From NCBI GenBank assembly GCA_016188985.1, contig JACPGM010000076.1, positions 1 to 43,794 on the forward strand: a DNA stretch of 43,794 bases. The letters are read 5' to 3'. Positions 13,002 through 35,510 of this stretch are shown piece by piece. The position numbers were made by a program, and so were the translations under genes. Each line of letters starts with the position of its first letter. Position 1 is the stretch's first letter. The notes beneath the pieces are model-generated. The model saw nothing but the letters and a program-made list of their open reading frames with translations. It did not search any database and was not told the DNA's origin. The DNA is from Lentisphaerota bacterium (GTDB taxonomy: Bacteria > Verrucomicrobiota > Kiritimatiellia > JAAZAB01).

Positions 13002-13997
13002 ATGCAGCGCATAGCCATATTGGGTGATGGCGGCTGGGGAACCGCTCTGGGCCTGCTGCTTGTTAAGCAGGGTCAGGCCGTGCGCCTCTGGGGCCCTTTC
13101 CCGGAATATATCGAGCGCTTGCGCCGTGAACGCGAGAACACCGCTTTTCTGCCCGGCGTGCCGTTGCCCCAAGAGTTGTTTTTGACCGCCGACCGCGATG
13201 AGGCCGTGGCCGAGGCCGAGGTGGTCATCCTGGCGGTGCCATCCAAGTTTTACCGGAACGTCCTGGAATCTTTTGCCGGCCGGTTGCGGCCGGGTTGTAT
13301 GCTCTTAAGCGTGAGCAAGGGCCTGGATGGCGCCACGCGCCGGCGCCTCTCCCAGGTGGCCGGCGAGGTGCTTGGCCAGAACCCGGTGGCGGTATTGTCG
13401 GGCCCCAGCCATGCCGAAGAAGTGGCCCGCGGGGTGCCTACCGCCGTGGTGCTGGCCTGCGAAGATCAGGAGCGCGCCGACGCGCTGCAGAAAATAATGA
13501 CCGCCGCGCAGTTCCGCGTGTACACTTCCGAGGATGTCGTCGGGGTAGAGTTGGGCGGGGCCTTGAAAAATGTCATGGCGCTGGCCGCGGGCATCAGCGA
13601 CGGCCTTGGTCTTGGCGACAATACCCGCGCCGCGCTCATCACCCGCGGCCTGGCGGAAATGACGCGCCTGGGCGTTGCCTTGGGCGCGCGCAGCGAAACG
13701 TTTGCGGGCTTGAGCGGTCTGGGCGATCTTGTCGTTACCTGCACTTCGCACTGGAGCCGGAATCGCGCCGTCGGCGAGCGGCTGGGGCGCGGCGAGACCT
13801 TATCAGAAATTCTCGGCAGCATGCGCCAGGTGGCCGAGGGCGTTACCACCGCGCTTGTTGCCCAGGAAGTGGCCCGCGAATATGGAGTGCGCTCTCCCAT
13901 AACCGACGAGGTCCATGCCGTGCTCTATGAGAATCGCCAGCCGAGCCTGGCGGTCGAAAACCTCCTGGCCCGCGCCACCCGGCCGGAACGGGATTAA
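13002..13997 (+). CDS. gpsA: NAD(P)-dependent glycerol-3-phosphate dehydrogenase GpsA
   Basis: A 331-aa soluble enzyme that reduces dihydroxyacetone phosphate to glycerol 3-phosphate for phospholipid synthesis. The dinucleotide-binding loop reads GDGGWGTALG (usual form GxGxWGTA). LSVSKGLD, LSGPSHAEEV and the catalytic-lysine region GVELGGALKNVMALAAGISDGLGLGDN are all present. GLSGLGDLVVTCTS and SRNRAVGERLGRG are further family motifs. Length is normal. It sits after plsY, the next enzyme in the route. The start at 13002 fits the family; no strong ribosome site is seen. Confidence 0.97.
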   Translation: MQRIAILGDGGWGTALGLLLVKQGQAVRLWGPFPEYIERLRRERENTAFLPGVPLPQELFLTADRDEAVAEAEVVILAVPSKFYRNVLESFAGRLRPGCMLLSVSKGLDGATRRRLSQVAGEVLGQNPVAVLSGPSHAEEVARGVPTAVVLACEDQERADALQKIMTAAQFRVYTSEDVVGVELGGALKNVMALAAGISDGLGLGDNTRAALITRGLAEMTRLGVALGARSETFAGLSGLGDLVVTCTSHWSRNRAVGERLGRGETLSEILGSMRQVAEGVTTALVAQEVAREYGVRSPITDEVHAVLYENRQPSLAVENLLARATRPERD

Positions 13998-14010
13998 AAT
14001 AACTACGCTA

Positions 14011-15441
14011 ATGGCAAAATCTGAAAAATTGCTCTCTACCTGTCGAAGCGCGCTACCATTCCGCGCGCGGACCTGTTGGTGCGCCGTGCTTCCCAGCGGC
14101 AAAGCCGTCATGGTCCGAGCTTGGCGGTCAGCGGGCGGAACTCTGCGCCATGTGGTTGAACCCCAGTCGGAATCGGTCGGGAAGAGCGGCCTTTGGGTGG
14201 GCTGTCTGCCCGTGCAGGAAAGTCTCACGCTCTGGCTGAACTCGTCGCTGACTTCCCTGGCCAAGGCCCGCAAGGTGTTGCCCACGCTTCTCGATATTCA
14301 ATTGCCCTTTCCCTTGGAGGAGTGCCTCTACCAGTTTGTGGAGTTTCGCCGGACAGCCGAAGGCACAGTCAGCGCCCTGGTTTGCGCCGCTCGCCGCGAG
14401 GCGGTCCAAGCCTGTTTGGCCCGTTACCAGGCGCAAGACTTGGACCCGATGCTCCTGGATCATGAAGGGCTTGCGCTCTGGACACAGAGCCTGGTTGAAG
14501 CACCCGCTGAGTCCGGGCGGCCGCGGGCGCTGATTTGCCTGGAAGACGATCATGTTACGCTTGCGTTGGGAATCGGCGATCGCTTTGGCCAAGCGCATAG
14601 TTTTCAAGCTGTGCTGGCGGCCGGCTCGGCTGGCGACTTGGTTAACCGCCTGCAACTGCTTCTGCACGCGGGCTTGCCTGCCCGCAATGCTACGCATAGC
14701 GTTGTAGGCGGGCCTGCCGTTTCCGGCGCCAGTGTGCAATGGCTATACTGCGGCGCGCGCGCCGGCGAAACGGCCATGGTTAATGCCTTGCATCAGTCCT
14801 TGGAGCAGTCCTGGCCGGGACCTTTAACGATTGTCAAGGAGCCGGCCTTATTCCTGGCGCGCGCCCTGTGTGAACGCGCGCTCAAACGCGGGCCGTTGCG
14901 TTGTAATTTGCGGCAGCCTCCTCTTGTCCATCCGGCCGTGCAGCGCGCCGTGGCGCTGCGCGCCCGCGCCGCCGTGGCAAGCGTCATGGTGGCCGGGTTG
15001 CTGTTAATCGGGTTCAGCGTGACCGCGCGGCTGTTGGCCGAGCAGCGCTTAAACCGCGTTAAAGCCGAGATTGATCTTGTGGCTGCTGAACTGGCGCCCG
15101 GCGCGGTGATTCCCTACGGCCGCGAAGTCGCGGAAGTTCAAAAGGCATGGGAAAAACGCGCGCCATTAACCAAGCCGTTTCTGGAGGCCTTTGCTCCTTC
15201 GCTGGCGGCGCGGCTGGCCGAGGTTGTCCGCTCCGGTCAGGCCGCGGCGGTGCGGTTTGAGACCTTGAGCCTGCGGCGCAACAGCCTGGTCCTGACCGGT
15301 CTGGCTGAGGACTGGGACCAGTGCGGCGAATTGGAAGAACGCCTGAAGGCGCTGGGTTATTCCGTGAAGCTGGAGCGGCAGGAAGCCGTGGCCGAAACCG
15401 CGGTGCGCTTCACGGTCAATGCCCAGGGAGGCGGCCCGTGA
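14011..15441 (+). CDS. GspL/PilM-PilN-like type II secretion or type IV pilus assembly protein
   Basis: A 476-aa protein with a cytoplasmic, actin-like N-terminal part (about 1-290), one membrane helix (about 321-342, VASVMVAGLLLIGFSVTARLL) and a periplasmic ferredoxin-like tail. This is the plan of GspL or of a PilM-PilN fusion. In such machines it links the ATPase to the inner-membrane platform. ATG 14011 was chosen because the longer frame only overlaps gpsA. The next gene overlaps it by 4 bp (GTGA) and looks like GspM/PilO. A palindromic repeat is inserted in frame at residues about 221-236 (LPARNATHS followed by GGPA). No other secretion genes adjoin, apart from a pseudopilin about 4 kb away. 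Confidence 0.6.
   Translation: MAKSEKLLSTCRSALPFRARTCWCAVLPSGKAVMVRAWRSAGGTLRHVVEPQSESVGKSGLWVGCLPVQESLTLWLNSSLTSLAKARKVLPTLLDIQLPFPLEECLYQFVEFRRTAEGTVSALVCAARREAVQACLARYQAQDLDPMLLDHEGLALWTQSLVEAPAESGRPRALICLEDDHVTLALGIGDRFGQAHSFQAVLAAGSAGDLVNRLQLLLHAGLPARNATHSVVGGPAVSGASVQWLYCGARAGETAMVNALHQSLEQSWPGPLTIVKEPALFLARALCERALKRGPLRCNLRQPPLVHPAVQRAVALRARAAVASVMVAGLLLIGFSVTARLLAEQRLNRVKAEIDLVAAELAPGAVIPYGREVAEVQKAWEKRAPLTKPFLEAFAPSLAARLAEVVRSGQAAAVRFETLSLRRNSLVLTGLAEDWDQCGELEERLKALGYSVKLERQEAVAETAVRFTVNAQGGGP
14671..14718 (+). repeat. Palindromic repeat inserted in frame in the GspL-like gene
   Basis: An imperfect 17-bp-stem hairpin around the core CCCGCAATGCTACGCATAGC. A 27-base stretch of it is identical to the minus strand at about 34553-34582 in the AlgJ-like gene. 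Both copies are read in the same frame and give LPARNATHS..GGPA. Confidence 0.8.
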
Positions 15442-25468: not shown

Positions 25469-27934
25469 TCAATACTCGCCGGAGTTGAGGCCGGTGGTGA
25501 CCGGAGCGTAGAAGGCGTCGCGGACGACCGCATAGCCGGCGTCGTTGGGATGATTGGCCGAAGGCTGGTCCATCAGCGACGATTCCCAGCCGGGGACGGC
25601 GGTGATGGCTTCATATACCGGGGCCACCCGGATATTGAAGTCGCTGGCAATGGAATAAATGCGCGGGTTGAAGGCCGCGATCCGCGCGGCCTGCTCGCTG
25701 CGGTCGCGGTAATTGTTGCTGATTACCGGCGGAATGGTGGCGATGATTACCGGGATGCCGCGAGCCAGGGCGGTGCTGACCATATTGCGCAGGTTCTCTT
25801 CGATCTCATCAAAGGGATTGCCGTAGAAATGATCGTTAGTGCCTTCCATCAGCAGAATCAGGTCGGGGTCGGTCGTATCAAGCGTCTCGACAAACCGCTC
25901 GAAGCCGTCATAAGTGTCTTCGCCGGGATTGCCGCGGTTGATGGAGAGAAAATAGCCGTCAAAATATTGTTTGAGCTTGTCCTCCAGCAGCTTCGGGTAG
26001 CCGGTGGCGGGGCCGTCGTTGCTGCTGCCGCCGCCGTAAGTAATGCTGTCGCCAAAGGCCAGGAACACCAGGTCTTCGCGCCAGAGCGGTTTGACCGCGG
26101 CGTCATTAGTGCCGCCGAAGAACATCTCGGCGCCCTGATAGCCGCTGCCGGAAAGCATGACCATCCAATTGGTTAGCGTCGCGGCATGGACCATCGGGTC
26201 GGCCCGGCCGTCGCCATCGTAATCGCCCGGCACCGGTTTATAGGCCGCGCTGCCCCAGGCGCCGGAGGCGGCGGCGTAGCCGCTGGCGGAAAGAAGCGCC
26301 TGCCAAAGGCCGTTGGTTTTATTATAGATGCACAGGTCCGTCCGGGCGTCGTTGTCGAAATCCGCCGGCACGGCCTCATAGCCTGGGCCGCCGAAGGTGG
26401 CGGAAACATCCAGGTACCCGCTGCCGGAAAGCAAGGTGCGCCATTCGCCGGAGGATTCATCATAAAGGCTGGGGTCGGCCTTGCCATCGCCATCAAAATC
26501 GGCCACGAGCGGAATGAAATTCGATGCGCCCCAGGTCACGGTGACGGCCTGGTAACTGCTGTCGGATAACAGGACTCCCCAAGTGCGGGAAGCCTTGCGA
26601 TAATAAGCCGGGTCGGTCAGGCCATCGCCGTCATAGTCGGCGCAGACCGGGCCGGCATTGGTCACGCTCAGATTGGTTGCCGCGATCGTATGAGCGCTGC
26701 CGGAAAGCATGATCCACCAAGTCCCGGTTTTACTCATGACGGCCGGGTCGGTTTTGCCGTCGCCATCATAATCGCCCGGCGCCGGCCGCCAGCCGGTGCT
26801 GCCCAGGACCGGCTGCAGGCCCGAGGTATAATTCAGGCTGGAAAAAAGGACGGTCCAATTGCCGGCGGCCTCTTCATAAATTGCCGGATCGGCTTTGCTG
26901 TCGCCATCATAATCATTGACCCGCTGCATGGAGCGGTTGGTCAGCGAATATTGGTAGGTATCAAATGTTTGCCAGGTTGTCAGGTTGGCGGAGCCTTTCC
27001 ATTCCAGCGTCACAACGAGGTTGGAAACGGTCACGAGGCAGTAGCCGTTGGTGAAACCAATGTGGCGGACTTTGACCGCCATGTTGGTTTCGCCAAAGTC
27101 CGCGCCGTAAGCGCCGTCCCAATCGTAGAACGGCGCGCCGCCGGAGCCGACTACCACTTGCCGGATGGTTCCGCCATTGGTTGTGCTCACAATAGCGTGA
27201 TTGTAAAAATGGTCGTGGCCGCAGAAATAGAGGCGGCTGCCGGCGGCGTGCAGGCTGTTAAGGAACGCGTCGCGCGCGGCTGGGTTCTGCGCCAGGATAT
27301 CGCTGTGATACATCTGAACGGCCGGCTCGTGGCCAAAGGTGAAAACGTGCGGCTTGGTGTTAAGGGCGAGCTGGTTGGTGAGCCAATCCTGGTTGACCTG
27401 GTGGGCATTGCGATATTGGTCGAGCGCCGCGAAGAATGCGTTTTTGTGAGTGAAGCTGTAGGTTAAACCCAGTTCATCGGTCGGGCCGTTGACCGGCAAG
27501 CTGTTGCTGAAGGCCGCTAAATAGGCTGTCCCCGTGGTGTCGTCGCCATAGGTTTCATGGTTGCCGCGCACGGGATAGACCGGAATACCGGCGGCGTAAA
27601 CCGGGGCCAGGGCATTCGTCCAGACGGCATACTGCGTGGCAAGGTTGGTGTCGTTGGATGATGCGACGCCGTAAATCAAGTCGCCGGTAACCAGCACGAG
27701 TTCAGCCTGATCATTGGTAATCGCCGTAGCCTGAGCCGCCAGGACATCCGTGTTGACCCAGGGAGCGCTGGGGGTGTTCGTGTTGTCGCCGCGGGTGTCG
27801 CCAATGACGGCGAAACGCCAGACGCCGGCCGGGGCCGGGTTGGCCAGAAGAAAAACCGCGAGACCGACCAACACTTGTAGCCCCAACTTTGCGCCGCGCT
27901 TGCGGGAAAATAATGGTATCGCGTTTACAACCAT
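25469..27934 (-). CDS. Secreted fusion: metallophosphoesterase, six VCBS/FG-GAP repeats, SGNH hydrolase
   Basis: An 821-aa exported protein (signal about 15-36, ending APAGVW). Residues about 38-300 form a calcineurin-like phosphoesterase with GDTR (45-48), GDLIY (84-88), GNHE (124-127), GHE (201-203) and GHDH (239-242). Six Ca-binding DxDxDxxxD repeats follow at about 341, 388, 433, 479, 525 and 571, about 46 aa apart. Residues about 622-815 form an SGNH/GDSL hydrolase with GDSI (S630) and EGTND (N700). Block V reads HPNDAGY (H795), with a serine (S792) where the Asp three residues before His is usual; D789 may substitute. It may release phosphate and acyl or ester groups from external polymers; substrates are unknown. 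Confidence 0.8.
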   Translation of the reverse strand: MVVNAIPLFSRKRGAKLGLQVLVGLAVFLLANPAPAGVWRFAVIGDTRGDNTNTPSAPWVNTDVLAAQATAITNDQAELVLVTGDLIYGVASSNDTNLATQYAVWTNALAPVYAAGIPVYPVRGNHETYGDDTTGTAYLAAFSNSLPVNGPTDELGLTYSFTHKNAFFAALDQYRNAHQVNQDWLTNQLALNTKPHVFTFGHEPAVQMYHSDILAQNPAARDAFLNSLHAAGSRLYFCGHDHFYNHAIVSTTNGGTIRQVVVGSGGAPFYDWDGAYGADFGETNMAVKVRHIGFTNGYCLVTVSNLVVTLEWKGSANLTTWQTFDTYQYSLTNRSMQRVNDYDGDSKADPAIYEEAAGNWTVLFSSLNYTSGLQPVLGSTGWRPAPGDYDGDGKTDPAVMSKTGTWWIMLSGSAHTIAATNLSVTNAGPVCADYDGDGLTDPAYYRKASRTWGVLLSDSSYQAVTVTWGASNFIPLVADFDGDGKADPSLYDESSGEWRTLLSGSGYLDVSATFGGPGYEAVPADFDNDARTDLCIYNKTNGLWQALLSASGYAAASGAWGSAAYKPVPGDYDGDGRADPMVHAATLTNWMVMLSGSGYQGAEMFFGGTNDAAVKPLWREDLVFLAFGDSITYGGGSSNDGPATGYPKLLEDKLKQYFDGYFLSINRGNPGEDTYDGFERFVETLDTTDPDLILLMEGTNDHFYGNPFDEIEENLRNMVSTALARGIPVIIATIPPVISNNYRDRSEQAARIAAFNPRIYSIASDFNIRVAPVYEAITAVPGWESSLMDQPSANHPNDAGYAVVRDAFYAPVTTGLNSGEY

Positions 27935-29387: not shown

Positions 29388-32300
29388 TTATGGCGCAATA
29401 GTGACTGTGGCGCTGTCATAAACCACATCGGGGTCCAGAACCCCGTTAAGCGTATCCACCCCGAAATAGAACGTATAGATTCCCGCCGGCAGGGCGGTGG
29501 TGTCCAACACCACCGCGGATTGCAGGCTGAGCAGACCGCCCTGATACACCGGCTGTAAAGCGGAGAAGTCGCTCGCCGCGGTCCATGCCAAGGCGCTGTT
29601 CAGATAATAAAGACCGACCGGCGTGGAAGACACCATCCACCAGTCCGCTGGATAACCCGCGTACTGCGCCGGATTCATGCTCACCGTGGCCACCAGTTGA
29701 CTACCCACGGCCACTATTACCGGACCCGCGGAGCCGTTGAGCCGCACGTCCGGACCGAGCAGCACTCGGCCTACGGCGCTCGTGCTGAACACGCTCGCGC
29801 CGCCTGCGTTTGTTGTCTTAACCCAGTAATAATAAGGTGTCCCCGCCGTCGCGGCCATATCGTCGTAGTTCGTTTCGGAGATACCCGTCCCGATGTTCGT
29901 TGCCAGGTCTGTGTCGTTACTCGCCCCGCGCCAGACCTCGTAGCCGGTCGCGCCGGCGGCGGCGTCCCAAGTCACCCGCACGCGGTCAATGTAGAAATCA
30001 TAGCTTGCGTCAACTCCCGTTGGCGCCGGCGGAAGCGCCAACACATAGGCCGCGCCCTGGGCAGCATTCCCGCCCACATCCGCCCCTTGCGCGCCGACGA
30101 TAACGGTGCTCCCGTCACTGCTCAACGCCGCAGAATAGCCAAAATAATCACTCGCGGCGCCGTCCGCCGCGATCAGTTTTTCCTGCTGGGTCCAGACCGC
30201 GCCGGAGCGCGTGAACACGTAGGCCGCGCCCTGGTTGATATTCCCGCCCACATCCGCCAAATACGCGCCGGCGATAGCGGTGTTCCCGTCACCACTCAAT
30301 GTAATTGAAATACCAAAGAAATCAGCCGCGGCGCCGTCTGCGGATGCTATTTTCGCCTGCTGGGCCCAGACCGCGCCGGAGCGCGTGAACACGTAGGCCG
30401 CACCCTGATCCGTGTTCCCGCCCACGTCCGCCCAAGCCGCGCCGGCGATGGCCGTGTCCCCGTCACTGCTCAACGCCACGGCAATGCCAAATAAATCACT
30501 CATGGCGCCGTCCGCCGCGGTAAGTTTTTCCTGCTGAGTCCAGACCACGCCGGAACGCGTGAACACGTAGGCCGCACCCTGGTTGATATTCCCACCCACG
30601 TCCGCCCGGTTCGCGCCGGCGATGGCCGTGTCCCCGTCGCTGCTCAACGCCACGGCAACGCCAAATACATCACTCGTGGCGCCGTCCGCCGCAATCAGTT
30701 TCGCCTGCTGACTCCAGGAAGCGCCGGAGCGCGTGAAAATGTAGGCCGCTCCCTGATCCGCTGTCCCACTCACATCCGCAAAATGCGCGCCGGCGATAGC
30801 GGTGTCCCCGTCGCTGCTCAACGCCACGGAATAGCCAAAATAATCACTCGCGGCGCCGTCCGCCGCGGTAAGTTTTTCCTGCTGGGTCCAGACTGCGCCG
30901 GAACGCGTGAACACGTAGGCCGCACCCTGATCCGCATTCGCTCCATACGCGCCGGCGATAGCGGTATTCCCGTCGCTGCTCAACGCCACGGAATAGCCAA
31001 AATAATCATTCGTGGCGCCGTCCGCGGCAATCAGTTTCGCCTGCTGGGACCAGGCAAGGCCGGAACGCGTGAAGACATAGGCCACGCCCTGGTTATTATT
31101 CCCGCCCACGTCCGCCAAATACGCGCCGGCGATGGCCGTATTTCCATCGCTGCTCAACGCCACGGCAATGCCCAATGTATCACCCGCAGCGCCGTCCGCG
31201 GCAATCAGTTTCGCCTGCTGACTCCAGGAAGCGCCGGAGCGCGTGAACACGTAAGCCGCTCCCTGGTTATTATTTCCACCCACATCCGCGTCGCCCGCGC
31301 CGGCGAAGGCGGTGTTCCCGTCACTGCTCAATGCCACGGCAATGCCCAATTGATCGTTCGCGGCGCCGTCCGCGGCGGTCAGTTTCGCCTGCTGGGTCCA
31401 GACCGCATTGGAGTGTGTGAAAACATAGGCCGCACCCTGATCCGTATTCCCGCCCACATCCGCGGAATATGCGTTGGCGAAGGCGGTGTTCCCATCACTG
31501 CTCAAAGTCACGGAATTGCCAAATCCAGCGCTCGCGGCGCCGTCCGCGGCGGTCAGTTTCGCCTGCTGACTCCAGGAAGCGCCGGAGCGCGTGAATATGT
31601 AGGCCGCACCCTGATCCGCATTCCCACCCACATCCGTGAAATACGCGCCGGCGATGGCCGTGTCCCCGTCACTGTTCAACGCCACGGACCAGCCAAATCC
31701 ATCACTCGTGGCGCCGTCCGCAGCGGTCAGTTTCGCCTGCTGCGTCCAGACAGCGCCGGAGCGCGTGAATATGTAGGCCGCACCCTGGCCGGCATTCCCG
31801 CCCACATCCGCATGATCCGCGCCGGAGATAGCGGTGTTCCCGTCACTGTTCAATACCACGCAAATGCCAAAACGATCGCTCGCGGCGCCGTCCGCGGCGG
31901 TCAGTTTCGCCTGCTGACTCCAGGAAGATCCGGAGCCCGTGAATATGTAGGCCGCTCCCTGACCAGCATTCCCGCCCACATCCGCCCCATCCGCGCCGGC
32001 GATAGCGGTGTTCCCGTCACCGCTCACCGCCACGCAAATGCCAAAATTATCGTTGGCGGCGCCGTCCGCGGCGGTCAGTTTCGCCTGTTGAGTCCAGACA
32101 GCGCCGGAGCGCGTAAATATGTAGGCCGCACCCTGATTTGCATTCGTGCCTACATCCGCCCCATCCGCGCCGGCGATGGCCGTGTCCCCGTTGCCACTCA
32201 ACGCCACGAAATAGCTAAAACGATCGTGCGCGGCGCCGTCCGCCGCAATCAGTCTCGCCTGCTGACTCCAGGCGGCGCCGGAGCGCGTGAATATGTAGGC

Positions 32301-33521
32301 CGCCCCCTGATCCGTGTTCCCGCCCACATCCGCAAAATGCGCGCCGACGATGGCGGTGTTTCCATTACTGCTCAACGCCACGCAAATGCCAAAAAGATCA
32401 TTGGCGGCGCCGTCCCAGGCGGTGGCGGTCAGTTTCGCCTGCTGAATAAATGGGTCTATGGTGATGGGATAGCGCGCTCCTTTGTCGTCCACGCGCACGA
32501 GTAATTTGTTTTCTCTTGTTTCCAGCCACGCCGGCAAGCGCGCCCCATCCGCGTCAAGTGCGGTTAAGCCGCTATACCGCAGGGCCGGTTCGCGCTTTCC
32601 GCCAATAGAGGAATACGTCAGCAGGGTCAAGCCTGCCTGGTCGGCGTCCACTTGGCTGTGGATATCGCCGGCGGGCAAGTTCAATACAAAAGTCAGCGGG
32701 CCGCAGTTCGTGTCGTGGCGCTCTTGCCTGGGCGCTGGCCTTGCGAAGTCTCGCCAAGGGCGGATAGCGCTCTCGCCGTCGCGAAGCGCTATGGCGGAGC
32801 ACGGCTGGCGGAGCCTGGCCGGCGGCGCGTGCACGGTGAACCCCTGTTGCAGGCCCAGCGGGCCATTAACATACCATTCGGTCAACGCTCCCCGGTGGTA
32901 TTCCACCCGGTTGGCGGAGACGAAAGGCGCCGGCACGATCGTGTTTTTCAACTCGGCCGGAAGCGCGTCGCCATAGCCCCACGCCTGCACGCGAAGGTTC
33001 CAATGTGTTCCGCCGCTTACGACGCAGGCGCCCTGCGCGTCGAAGCGCGCGTTGAAATGCTGATTGGGATTGGCGGCCTGGTAATCCGTGCTTGCCCTGC
33101 ATAGCCCATCAGGCGAAGCAGGGTGCTCTCCGGTCTCGCCTGGGTGAAGCGCTCTTGCCTGAGCGTAGCATTCCGGCGAAGCCTGGTCGGCGGAGCCTGG
33201 CGGGCTTGCCTGGGTCATGGACGCGACTCCCGCGAAGCGCGGAATAAAGTGATACGCTGTCTGATCCTTGCCCAGCGCGGCCGATACGGCGTATTGCGTC
33301 TCCAAGGGCAGCGTGCCGCTGCTCGCTCCGTGCTCCGCCGTAGCGTTCCCGCCTTCGTCCGGCGAGGCCGGACTTCGGTGGGCGCTCGTGCTTCGTAGCG
33401 AAGGGGCCTCGCCACTTCGCAGAGTAGCATAGGAAGGTCGCGACGGCGAGTCGGCGGACACGCTCAGGCCGATACTGCTCCACGCTACGTATAACCATGT
33501 CAGCAACAATGTGATTTTCAT
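29388..33521 (-). CDS. Giant secreted protein: 14 FG-GAP-like repeats, fibronectin type III domain and C-terminal domain
   Basis: About 1,377 residues from ATG 33521 (ATG 33524 is adjacent; GAGGG lies 4 nt upstream of the former). A signal peptide (LLLTWLYVAWSSIGLSVSA) leads a roughly 350-residue N-terminal part. Fourteen tandem repeats of about 58 aa follow (pattern QQAKLTAADGAASDxFGxSV, ALSSDGNTAIAGA, ADVGGNxxQGAAYVFTRSG), as in integrin-like FG-GAP propellers. Repeat 9 is shorter, missing the ADVGG step. A fibronectin type III-like domain (PAPTGVDASYDFYIDRVRVT onwards) and an Ig-like tail end the protein. It is probably a surface adhesin or matrix protein. The N-terminal part contains in-frame palindromic repeats that give odd peptides. 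Confidence 0.82.
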   Translation of the reverse strand: MKITLLLTWLYVAWSSIGLSVSADSPSRPSYATLRSGEAPSLRSTSAHRSPASPDEGGNATAEHGASSGTLPLETQYAVSAALGKDQTAYHFIPRFAGVASMTQASPPGSADQASPECYAQARALHPGETGEHPASPDGLCRASTDYQAANPNQHFNARFDAQGACVVSGGTHWNLRVQAWGYGDALPAELKNTIVPAPFVSANRVEYHRGALTEWYVNGPLGLQQGFTVHAPPARLRQPCSAIALRDGESAIRPWRDFARPAPRQERHDTNCGPLTFVLNLPAGDIHSQVDADQAGLTLLTYSSIGGKREPALRYSGLTALDADGARLPAWLETRENKLLVRVDDKGARYPITIDPFIQQAKLTATAWDGAANDLFGICVALSSNGNTAIVGAHFADVGGNTDQGAAYIFTRSGAAWSQQARLIAADGAAHDRFSYFVALSGNGDTAIAGADGADVGTNANQGAAYIFTRSGAVWTQQAKLTAADGAANDNFGICVAVSGDGNTAIAGADGADVGGNAGQGAAYIFTGSGSSWSQQAKLTAADGAASDRFGICVVLNSDGNTAISGADHADVGGNAGQGAAYIFTRSGAVWTQQAKLTAADGATSDGFGWSVALNSDGDTAIAGAYFTDVGGNADQGAAYIFTRSGASWSQQAKLTAADGAASAGFGNSVTLSSDGNTAFANAYSADVGGNTDQGAAYVFTHSNAVWTQQAKLTAADGAANDQLGIAVALSSDGNTAFAGAGDADVGGNNNQGAAYVFTRSGASWSQQAKLIAADGAAGDTLGIAVALSSDGNTAIAGAYLADVGGNNNQGVAYVFTRSGLAWSQQAKLIAADGATNDYFGYSVALSSDGNTAIAGAYGANADQGAAYVFTRSGAVWTQQEKLTAADGAASDYFGYSVALSSDGDTAIAGAHFADVSGTADQGAAYIFTRSGASWSQQAKLIAADGATSDVFGVAVALSSDGDTAIAGANRADVGGNINQGAAYVFTRSGVVWTQQEKLTAADGAMSDLFGIAVALSSDGDTAIAGAAWADVGGNTDQGAAYVFTRSGAVWAQQAKIASADGAAADFFGISITLSGDGNTAIAGAYLADVGGNINQGAAYVFTRSGAVWTQQEKLIAADGAASDYFGYSAALSSDGSTVIVGAQGADVGGNAAQGAAYVLALPPAPTGVDASYDFYIDRVRVTWDAAAGATGYEVWRGASNDTDLATNIGTGISETNYDDMAATAGTPYYYWVKTTNAGGASVFSTSAVGRVLLGPDVRLNGSAGPVIVAVGSQLVATVSMNPAQYAGYPADWWMVSSTPVGLYYLNSALAWTAASDFSALQPVYQGGLLSLQSAVVLDTTALPAGIYTFYFGVDTLNGVLDPDVVYDSATVTIAP
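30040..32440 (-). repeat. Fourteen tandem ~174-bp coding repeats
   Basis: Inside the giant protein gene the units are highly alike at the DNA level (for example GCGGCGCCGTCCGC and GTGTTCCCGTCACTGCTCAA recur in many units), so the array may expand or shrink by recombination. Because the unit is a multiple of 3, long antisense frames also stay open; they are shadows. Confidence 0.85.
32725..32830. repeat. In-gene palindromic repeat mosaic (N-terminal region of giant protein)
   Basis: AGCGCT..GAGAGC-like stems and the words GCGAAGCGCTATGGCGGAGC and GGCGGAGCCTGG lie within the coding sequence, giving the peptide RQPCSAIALRDGESAIRPWR. The second word recurs at about 33190 and 16512. Confidence 0.55.
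33100..33430. repeat. In-gene palindromic repeat mosaic (signal-proximal region of giant protein)
   Basis: A second, longer mosaic of CAGGCGAAGCAGG, GGCGGAGCCTGGCGGG, CTTCGTAGCGAAG and CTTCGCAGAGTAGC (33415-33428, inverted match to 1011-1024). It is open in the coding frame and gives low-complexity peptide rich in S, P, A and R. Confidence 0.55.
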
Positions 33522-33806: not shown

Positions 33807-35510
33807 TTAGCGCTGTAATTTGCCCCAGCAGGGTTCGATGAGTTGCAGCTCTTGATCGGGCAGTTCGGTGCGGTTGATCCGCTCGTAGCGCTTCGCCACG
33901 TCCGACCACGGGCGCAACGCTATCATTACCGTATCGCCGGAGCGCAGGCGGGCGGCGCGGGTCCAGACATTGTCGCGCATGCTCTCGAAATACACGAGCG
34001 CCTGGCCGTTGCCAGTTGCATCAGTCAGGTCCACGATATGAGCTGCAACGATATGGTCCTTGTAAGGCACGGTGCCGGGGCGTGGCACGGGGGCAATCGT
34101 CTTCACTACACCTTTCAAGCTCAGTATCTGGCCGGGCTGCGGCAGCACGAAGCCGGCTTGCTCTGGTTGGCCGAGCTTCAGCGTTATCTCCGGCCAGTCT
34201 CCGCTGGAGAGCTCGCGCATGGCAAACTGCCAGATTACCAGGCGTTTGCCTGCCAGCCGGTCGCGCCCGCGGGCGAGTTCGCGCGCCAGGAGCGCCCGCG
34301 TAGCATAGGCGCCATTGTCATTGATTACCAGGCGATCCAGCGGCCACTGCAGCTCAAAGCTCAACTGCTCGATAAGTCCGGCGCTTTCGCCCCAACCCAT
34401 GGCCGCCAGGGAATATACATTGCAAAAACTGTCGCCCAGCACCAGCACGTCGGCGGTTATATCGGCCTGAAAGTACTCGCCGCGCGGAGTCAGAATCTGC
34501 TTGAGGCGCACCGATTCCGGCGGATACCCTTGGCTCCCGGCCGGCCCACCTGCAGCGCTATGCGTAGCATTGCGGGCAGGCAGCCGCAGCATGACTGCAA
34601 TATCACCGCGATTGGTAACTCCGACGGTCTGAGCGGAATAGCCCGCGGCCGGCCGCACGGGCAATTTCGTATGGCGGTCAATATATTGCTTGAGGCTGCG
34701 TGCGGCAAGTTCCATGGCCTCCGGCCGCCAATGTGTATCGGTGGCCAGATACGTATTGCTGGAGCGGGCTGCTTCCAGCAAGGTGCTCGTAACATCCATT
34801 ACGTGCACGCCGGAGCGTTCCAGATCGCTAAGCCAAGCGGCATAGGAGGGATTCTGCAGAGGGGCAAATCCGTTCTTGAACCGGCTCGAAAACTTTTCTG
34901 GCTGGATGGCGGTTTTAGGCGGGATCGGCAAGACGACCAGTTGAATCCCCATTTTTTCCAGTTGCCGTTGGAAATCGAGGATGGCCGGCCGCGGGTCGGG
35001 CTGCGGCGCGCGGGTCCACTCATTACCGCCGGCGGCGCGGCGCGCAAGCTGAACGGGATTCAGGAATCCCGGGCCGGTCAGATAATCCACATCGGCGCGG
35101 TAAAACAGCCAGGGGTACACGCCGCAATAGGCTTTTTCATTGCCGCTGCCAAGGTAGCGCGCCAGGACATATTGGATGGCCGGCCGTATTTTCCGGCCGA
35201 CAACGGACTCGTCCTCCAGCGCATCTTCAAGGGAATGCATTCCCTTGAGCAGTTGGCGGTTGGCGGCGAAGACCCGTGCCGGCAACGCGCCCGGAGTCTG
35301 GGCCAGCGCGGTGAGCGCCGCGCTGCCCGACCAGTGCGCGCGCGTTTCGGGTGCGCCAAGATCATGGAACTCTTGAATGATCCCGACAGCATAAATGCAA
35401 ATCAGAAACAGGCCGGTCAGGAACCAGGCCAGGGCCGGGCGGATAGTTGTCTGACCAACTTCCCGCAGGGCTTGCTCTTCGCGATTCAGGTATGGTGAGA
35501 ATACCTTCAT
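33807..35510 (-). CDS. AlgJ/AlgX-like SGNH O-acetyltransferase
   Basis: A 567-aa protein with one N-terminal membrane segment (about 25-46), so it faces the periplasm. The AlgX-N-type SGNH-like domain shows GDSF (G359-D360-S361) and D258-T-H260-W, the catalytic Ser, Asp and His candidates, as in AlgJ/AlgX. A C-terminal part (about 455-567) looks like an OB-fold or binding domain. With the MBOAT gene 2 nt upstream it would transfer acetyl groups to an exopolysaccharide or peptidoglycan-like polymer. A palindromic repeat is inserted in frame at residues 310-324, between the DTHW and GDS motifs. Confidence 0.82.
   Translation of the reverse strand: MKVFSPYLNREEQALREVGQTTIRPALAWFLTGLFLICIYAVGIIQEFHDLGAPETRAHWSGSAALTALAQTPGALPARVFAANRQLLKGMHSLEDALEDESVVGRKIRPAIQYVLARYLGSGNEKAYCGVYPWLFYRADVDYLTGPGFLNPVQLARRAAGGNEWTRAPQPDPRPAILDFQRQLEKMGIQLVVLPIPPKTAIQPEKFSSRFKNGFAPLQNPSYAAWLSDLERSGVHVMDVTSTLLEAARSSNTYLATDTHWRPEAMELAARSLKQYIDRHTKLPVRPAAGYSAQTVGVTNRGDIAVMLRLPARNATHSAAGGPAGSQGYPPESVRLKQILTPRGEYFQADITADVLVLGDSFCNVYSLAAMGWGESAGLIEQLSFELQWPLDRLVINDNGAYATRALLARELARGRDRLAGKRLVIWQFAMRELSSGDWPEITLKLGQPEQAGFVLPQPGQILSLKGVVKTIAPVPRPGTVPYKDHIVAAHIVDLTDATGNGQALVYFESMRDNVWTRAARLRSGDTVMIALRPWSDVAKRYERINRTELPDQELQLIEPCWGKLQR
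34543..34587 (-). repeat. Palindromic repeat inserted in frame in the AlgJ-like gene
   Basis: Minus-strand core CCCGCAATGCTACGCATAGC, sharing 27 identical bases with 14671-14718 and read in the same frame (LPARNATHSAAGGPA). Confidence 0.8.

Follow-up and report, generated by a model that had tools for sequence, protein, structure and literature searches.

A short palindrome inserted in frame in genes of two distant bacterial lineages

Mobile palindromes that insert in frame are best known from the Rickettsiales, with scattered intragenic REPs elsewhere, and the translated product of a Rickettsia palindromic element (RPE) has been shown to be tolerated in Gmk of Rickettsia. Short GC-rich hairpins, some of them within genes, are also found in AT-rich genomes of fungal mitochondria as GC clusters or double-hairpin elements. 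RPEs are palindromic and dispersed, and they lie in frame in conserved protein genes, where the translated segment is tolerated (PMC2229807). GTAG REPs are high-copy, dispersed repeats of 20-50 nt that consist of a 5' tetranucleotide and an imperfect hairpin (PMC3733652, PMC8266576). CGTC REPs are short palindromes that include RPE-4 and RPE-6 and lie, in some cases, in frame within genes; several species have GTAG or CGTC REPs within genes, notably Opitutus terrae, which is also a PVC bacterium (PMC3733652). PARCEL, a coding repeat of palindromic form, is reported to be distributed horizontally (PMC2996958).

The window analyzed here, positions 1 to 43,794 of contig JACPGM010000076.1 of a Lentisphaerota bacterium, carries two copies of the same exact 36-nt (12-codon) unit, whose boundaries were set by aligning all copies and by comparison with empty sites (Table 1). 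An initial annotation of this DNA had reported 27 identical bases read in the same frame in two proteins. Both observations are borne out: the run identical in the two copies is TGCCTGCCCGCAATGCTACGCATAGCG, and the ORF translations contain PARNATHSVVGG (508-aa ORF) and PARNATHSAAGG (567-aa ORF) in identical frame. Of the names given to the hosts, AlgJ-like agrees with the Pfam assignment, and GspL-like is without Pfam backing.

Table 1. Coordinates of the element copies, their host genes and the alternative folds in the window
Feature	Position	Strand	Basis or remark
Element copy 1 (CCTGCCCGCAATGCTACGCATAGCGTTGTAGGCGGG; 12 codons, PARNATHSVVGG)	14677..14712	+	Inside GspL-like ORF
Element copy 2 (CCTGCCCGCAATGCTACGCATAGCGCTGCAGGTGGG; 12 codons, PARNATHSAAGG)	34545..34580	-	Inside AlgX/AlgJ-type ORF
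Host ORF 1, 508 aa, GspL-like (name from the initial annotation)	13915..15441	+	No Pfam match
Host ORF 2, 567 aa, PF16822 ALGX (SGNH hydrolase-like), E 8.6e-26	33807..35510	-	Pfam
5' tetranucleotide CCTG, unpaired in hairpin H2; putative REP-like tag	14677..14680	+	DNA minimum-energy fold
Hairpin H2, 32-nt imperfect: CCCGC/GCGGG, AA/G internal loop, TGC/GCA, T-T mismatch, NCGC/GCGN', loop ATA	14681..14712	+	
Alternative hairpin H1, 32 nt: CCTGC/GCAGG, CGC/GCG, A-A mismatch, ATGC/GCAT, loop TNC	14677..14708	+	

The core CCCGCAATGCTACGCATAGC occurs without mismatch at 14681-14700 (+) and 34557-34576 (-), and no core match arose in 100 dinucleotide shuffles. A search of the genome and its relatives for this core, which had been proposed earlier, was productive. 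The window's own assembly (Kiritimatiellota; 3.09 Mb in 173 contigs, ~86% complete) has 76 places with three or fewer mismatches to the core, 38 per strand, versus none for a reversed-pattern control; 67 copies were read with their flanks. Among genomes of relatives, exact cores are present in 12 of the 58 searched, with the window's own counted. The consensus of the 36-nt element is CCTGCCCGCAATGCTNCGCATAGCGN'TGCAGGCGGG, which has CCTG at its end on one strand and CCCG on the other. Because the shared arms CCCGCCTGC...GCGGGCAGG are matched exactly 85 times in the same genome, over lengths of 30-46 nt, the element is one subfamily within a larger 30-46 bp superfamily with common arms. Classes of 32, 36 and 39 nt dominate these arm-sharing repeats, and their middles differ (for example, at loci L295, L297, L302 and L319). 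The element has no match in Rfam, and the only Rfam match in the window is a tRNA elsewhere.

Joining the 14 flanking bases on each side of a copy and searching for the result yields empty sites with zero bases extra or missing, such as TATGTCATCCTGAA/TTTATTTCAGGATC and, on the same contig, CGATGCGGGGTAGA/GAAGCGGTATCTCG. Several tips of GTAG REPs in the own genome are also empty sites. Since no base is gained or lost at such sites, each insertion adds precisely 36 bp and neither duplicates nor deletes target bases. There is little sequence preference at the insertion point, aside from avoidance of a preceding T, which is the base 5' of the element in just 8 of 184 cases. CA beside the 3' end, predicted for a CCTG guide by the REP guide rule, was not seen in the flanks. 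In GC-rich genomes, the element prefers the loops of existing hairpins: after look-alike flanks were collapsed, 19 of 89 copies were found within loops of strong hairpins, compared with 4.5% of control points (p 1.6e-8). The corresponding value in AT-rich genomes is 4 of 75 copies versus 2.3% of control points, which is not significant (p 0.09). Because GC-rich genomes are full of REP-like hairpins, part of the preference may reflect the spread of composite units. The intergenic regions of the own genome contain many GTAG-type REPs (for example, GTAGGGCGCGTTCGCCGAACGCGCC), some of which are broken exactly at the tip by the element. In Lentisphaerae GWF2_57_35 (loci L078, L101 and L152), the element is joined with a second, inverted hairpin in a composite of constant form that is repeated in the genome, an arrangement resembling a REPIN. 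At one other locus (L175:3120-3330), two tandem 5' fragments of tRNA-Arg each carry the element at the D-loop position beside an intact tRNA-Arg. This candidate for a disrupted tRNA gene was rejected because the interrupted sequences are partial tRNA repeats adjoining the intact gene.

The claims that the palindrome itself moved and that it inserts in frame are upheld by these zero-gap sites, by dozens of unrelated host proteins and by the orthologues of the two host genes. Comparison with orthologues had been set beforehand as the refuting test, and no orthologue of either gene that covers the site has the element (GspL-like orthologues in nine relatives, AlgJ-like orthologues in five). The AlgJ orthologues are shorter at the site by exactly 12 codons of DNA; for the GspL orthologues, two locally divergent residues add to the 12-codon difference. 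One relative (G003) has another, 42-nt in-frame insert in the AlgJ-type gene, adjoining the codon at which copy 2 is inserted. This different insert beside the same codon indicates that the spot was struck independently by another repeat. A copy can also persist, because two Patescibacteria whose Mur ligases are 68% identical carry the element at the same site of that protein. The AlphaFold model of the AlgJ-like host, made from a five-sequence alignment, has a mean pLDDT of 43 and was left out of the reasoning.

Sense phase 0 of the element encodes PARNA[STA]HS[VDA]AGG, and 36 is a multiple of three; phase 2 encodes LPAMLRIALQAG, phase 1 holds a stop, and the antisense frames are open. A host protein should thus gain the same twelve residues (PARNATHSVAGG) wherever the element lands between two codons. 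Frames were counted in the AT-rich genomes of Patescibacteria, in which a long ORF seldom arises by chance. There, 45 of 80 sites lie within ORFs of at least 150 aa, and 39 of these 45 copies take sense phase 0, one of five possible frames, versus 423 of 1814 random in silico insertions at the same loci. The bias of sense over antisense has a p value of 5e-7. Copies in genes therefore persist almost exclusively in the orientation and phase that encode PARNATHSVAGG-type peptides. The hosts named by Pfam are mostly essential genes, among them TrpRS, AlaRS, MetRS, PheRS beta, release factor 1 and peptidyl-tRNA hydrolase; ribosomal proteins S2 (two genomes), S9 and L25; SecA, GAPDH, several Mur ligases, ThiI, ornithine/aspartate carbamoyltransferase, UvrD and FtsK; and RNase J, ComEC, a ComM/YifB-like protein, a PurL-like protein (two) and a CCA-adding-type enzyme. 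DnaG is a Pfam-named host in the window's own genome. For TrpRS and SecA, alignment to PDB homologues leaves a gap of 12 residues precisely where the insert lies; the PDB homologue of GAPDH also has a gap there, but with local divergence.

A 17-bp stem had been described for the palindrome. Such a simple stem can be drawn and is the RNA-style optimum for one variant, but it is not conserved: around half of the variants cannot form its central pairs 11-26 and 16-21, and over 73 distinct variants its covariation does not exceed that of shuffles (90.1% of cells paired versus 90.3%). Scored over the same variants, the two interleaved hairpins of Table 1 behave otherwise. H1 (element positions 1-32) has 96.1% of cells paired versus 93.8% in shuffles and 19 compensatory cells versus 3.2 expected, and H2 (positions 5-36) has 95.7% versus 91.7% and 34 versus 9.3; relatedness of the variants inflates these shuffle tests, but a slid-partner control was also far lower. 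Pair 16/26 occurs as A-T, T-A and G-C, and pair 11/21 as A-T, G-C and T-A. H2 is the DNA minimum-energy fold for the consensus and the main variants. Thus, two mutually exclusive hairpins are kept through compensatory changes. Because H1 is built on one strand as H2 is on the opposite one, each strand presents a CCYG tetranucleotide and an imperfect hairpin of 32 nt that contains an AA/G loop and either a T-T or an A-A mismatch. The element can therefore be likened to two superposed REPs, one per strand.

The window's genus has exact cores in each of its five genomes, and two further genomes of the family and five elsewhere in the class carry them as well. When 85,000 species were scanned, at least 108 stretches matched the element, and among the 80 matches listed almost all come from Kiritimatiellota, Lentisphaerae, Verrucomicrobia or Patescibacteria, with full arms in nearly all. 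The initial annotation's wording "in this group" is too narrow, since Patescibacteria share the element. The Patescibacteria that carry the element are AT-rich. Occurrence is patchy in all groups, with the full element (two or fewer mismatches) in 8 of 192 Patescibacteria genomes drawn evenly, and copy number is erratic, ranging from none to ~80 core matches per genome. Nearly all carrier genomes are metagenome assemblies. Plasmid and phage collections contained no match to the element, and IMG/VR contained one contig with it. What looks like a copy in the Anaerolineae genome L118 has no arms and is probably a chance match.

The likeness to RPEs that had been pointed out, with a different sequence, is supported. 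Like RPEs (Ogata 2000, 2002) and the Wolbachia element WPE, the element is palindromic and dispersed and is inserted in frame in conserved genes that have element-free orthologues. However, RPEs are described as 105-146 bp long and specific to Rickettsia, whereas this element is 36 bp (30-46 bp across its superfamily), is unrelated in sequence and occurs in two very distant lineages. The resemblance to GTAG REPs extends to the 36-nt length, the tetranucleotide, the many dispersed copies (76 places) and, in H2, an imperfect hairpin with a conserved mismatch of the E. coli type. In contrast to the GTAG tag and mostly intergenic location described for those REPs, the element has at most a CCYG tag (CCTG and CCCG ends), two superposed strand signals and 45 of 80 AT-rich sites within ORFs of at least 150 aa. 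CGTC is likewise absent from both ends, and cognate copies flank none of 32 Y1_Tnp loci. The absence of either tag and of copies flanking the examined RAYT genes is the reason that the element is not classified here as a REP or an RPE. REPINs are likewise mobile units that combine a pair of inverted REP signals, but they have two separate hairpins and a spacer, whereas the hairpins of the element overlap and are mutually exclusive. MITEs (Correia, ERIC and RUP) are, like the element, short non-autonomous repeats that are in some cases fused in frame with genes; they have terminal repeats and target duplications, whereas zero-gap empty sites mark insertion of the element without duplication. 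The fungal mitochondrial elements have a similar form, although they are organellar and are likened to it by description.

That the element is mobile is close to certain, and we found no evidence against mobility itself. Its mode of movement is proposed on grounds of form. The E. coli TnpA_REP enzyme acts on single-stranded DNA bearing a GTAG tetranucleotide and an imperfect hairpin, in which a conserved AA-GC mismatch is needed (PMC8266576). Because the form of the element resembles such substrates, we propose that it would move as folded single-stranded DNA processed in trans by an HUH (Y1/TnpA_REP-like) transposase, which would read the CCYG tetranucleotide and the foot of the imperfect hairpin. 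With signals superposed on both strands, one short unit could serve as both ends. We judge the involvement of an HUH enzyme in trans to be evenly balanced between right and wrong, and the whole statement, a non-autonomous palindrome mobilized in this way, to be somewhat favored. Of the element-positive Patescibacteria, 31 of 36 have Y1_Tnp genes, versus 86 of 184 element-negative ones (p 1.4e-5), an association at the genome level only that is confounded by phylogeny and by unlike sampling of the two sets. Counting against the transposase step, 32 Y1_Tnp genes were scanned and none has a 36-mer copy within ~1.5 kb, although one of these loci holds an arm-related palindrome. The lack of CA in the flanks and the non-significant loop preference in AT-rich genomes weigh against this step as well. 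Five element-bearing Patescibacteria have no Y1_Tnp match, one of them (G078) with 18 core matches. No shared mobilizer was seen, because the sampled RAYTs of PVC bacteria and Patescibacteria are at most ~40% identical. Two Patescibacteria RAYT genes (L207 and L211) have their own, unlike palindromes on both sides, as in IS-like units. In genes, twelve hydrophilic codons containing Gly and Pro would make most in-frame insertions tolerable, and copies in essential genes would then survive as selfish passengers. The patchy presence in two distant lineages would reflect horizontal passage. A fuller synthesis, in which a selfish hairpin with superposed REP-like signals forms both ends of its own transposon, has evolved a harmless coding frame, invades essential genes and passes between Patescibacteria and Kiritimatiellota by HUH mobilization, is offered tentatively and is less likely than not.

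The same data bear on other explanations. A mobile palindrome might dispense with a dedicated transposase and spread as its hairpin provokes template switching or strand invasion while DNA is replicated, repaired or taken up, with transformation between co-resident cells. The lack of any 36-mer near the examined Y1_Tnp genes, the five carriers with no Y1_Tnp match and the insertions into hairpin loops of GC-rich genomes all fit such a route. However, the unit has base-exact ends across many sites and phyla, a precision seldom expected of template switching, and the landing sites have no homology, so we consider this route unlikely. A site used by the host, for protein binding, uptake or chromosome organization, could be under selection, with gene insertion a by-product. 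Strong conservation of sequence and structure between phyla and near absence from plasmid, phage and viral collections are consistent with this idea, which is nevertheless improbable given the erratic copy number, the patchy presence (8/192 Patescibacteria and 12/58 relatives) and the copies within essential coding sequences.

The insert might instead be removed from RNA or bypassed by the ribosome, in the manner of an intron or translational bypass, leaving host proteins without it. Essential-protein hosts and a stable hairpin would suit this mechanism, but frame and orientation would then be irrelevant, yet one frame accounts for 39 of 45 copies and the length of the unit, in its common form, is divisible by three; we regard it as very improbable. 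An assembly or binning artefact, or adapter-like contamination, is suggested by the prevalence of metagenome assemblies among carriers and is still harder to credit, because the element comes from many independent projects, shows base-exact insertions in genes and compensatory variation, and is conserved in the two Mur ligase orthologues. Least credible is that the peptide, which the two window proteins share in identical frame, belongs to a real conserved domain common to them. This reading is refuted by the covering orthologues, all of which lack the peptide, and by its presence in dozens of unrelated folds, including hosts with unrelated Pfam assignments; intergenic and nested copies also share the same DNA.

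Probably new here, relative to the systems described above, is one short in-frame mobile palindrome common to two very distant bacterial lineages and located inside SecA, ribosomal proteins and tRNA synthetases. In the openly accessible papers searched, neither the sequence nor the peptide was found (two matches were chance 11-mers), nor was any link between Patescibacteria and such repeats. The common sequence provides a defined substrate with which the mode of movement of such elements can be tested. Dominance of one of five open frames makes selection for a harmless reading frame testable, and exchange of short DNA between episymbiotic Patescibacteria and their hosts or neighbors becomes a testable question. 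For annotation, PARNATHSVAGG-type insertions in carrier genomes should not be taken for domains.

The window also contains longer coding repeats. Positions 30040-32449 hold ~13 tandem repeats of 174 nt (58 codons) that are 63-82% alike, with one unit of 162 nt, and likely encode a repeat protein. At 26143-26914, the minus strand of a series of 138-nt repeats encodes DYDGDG-like motifs, which suggests a calcium-binding or FG-GAP-type repeat protein.
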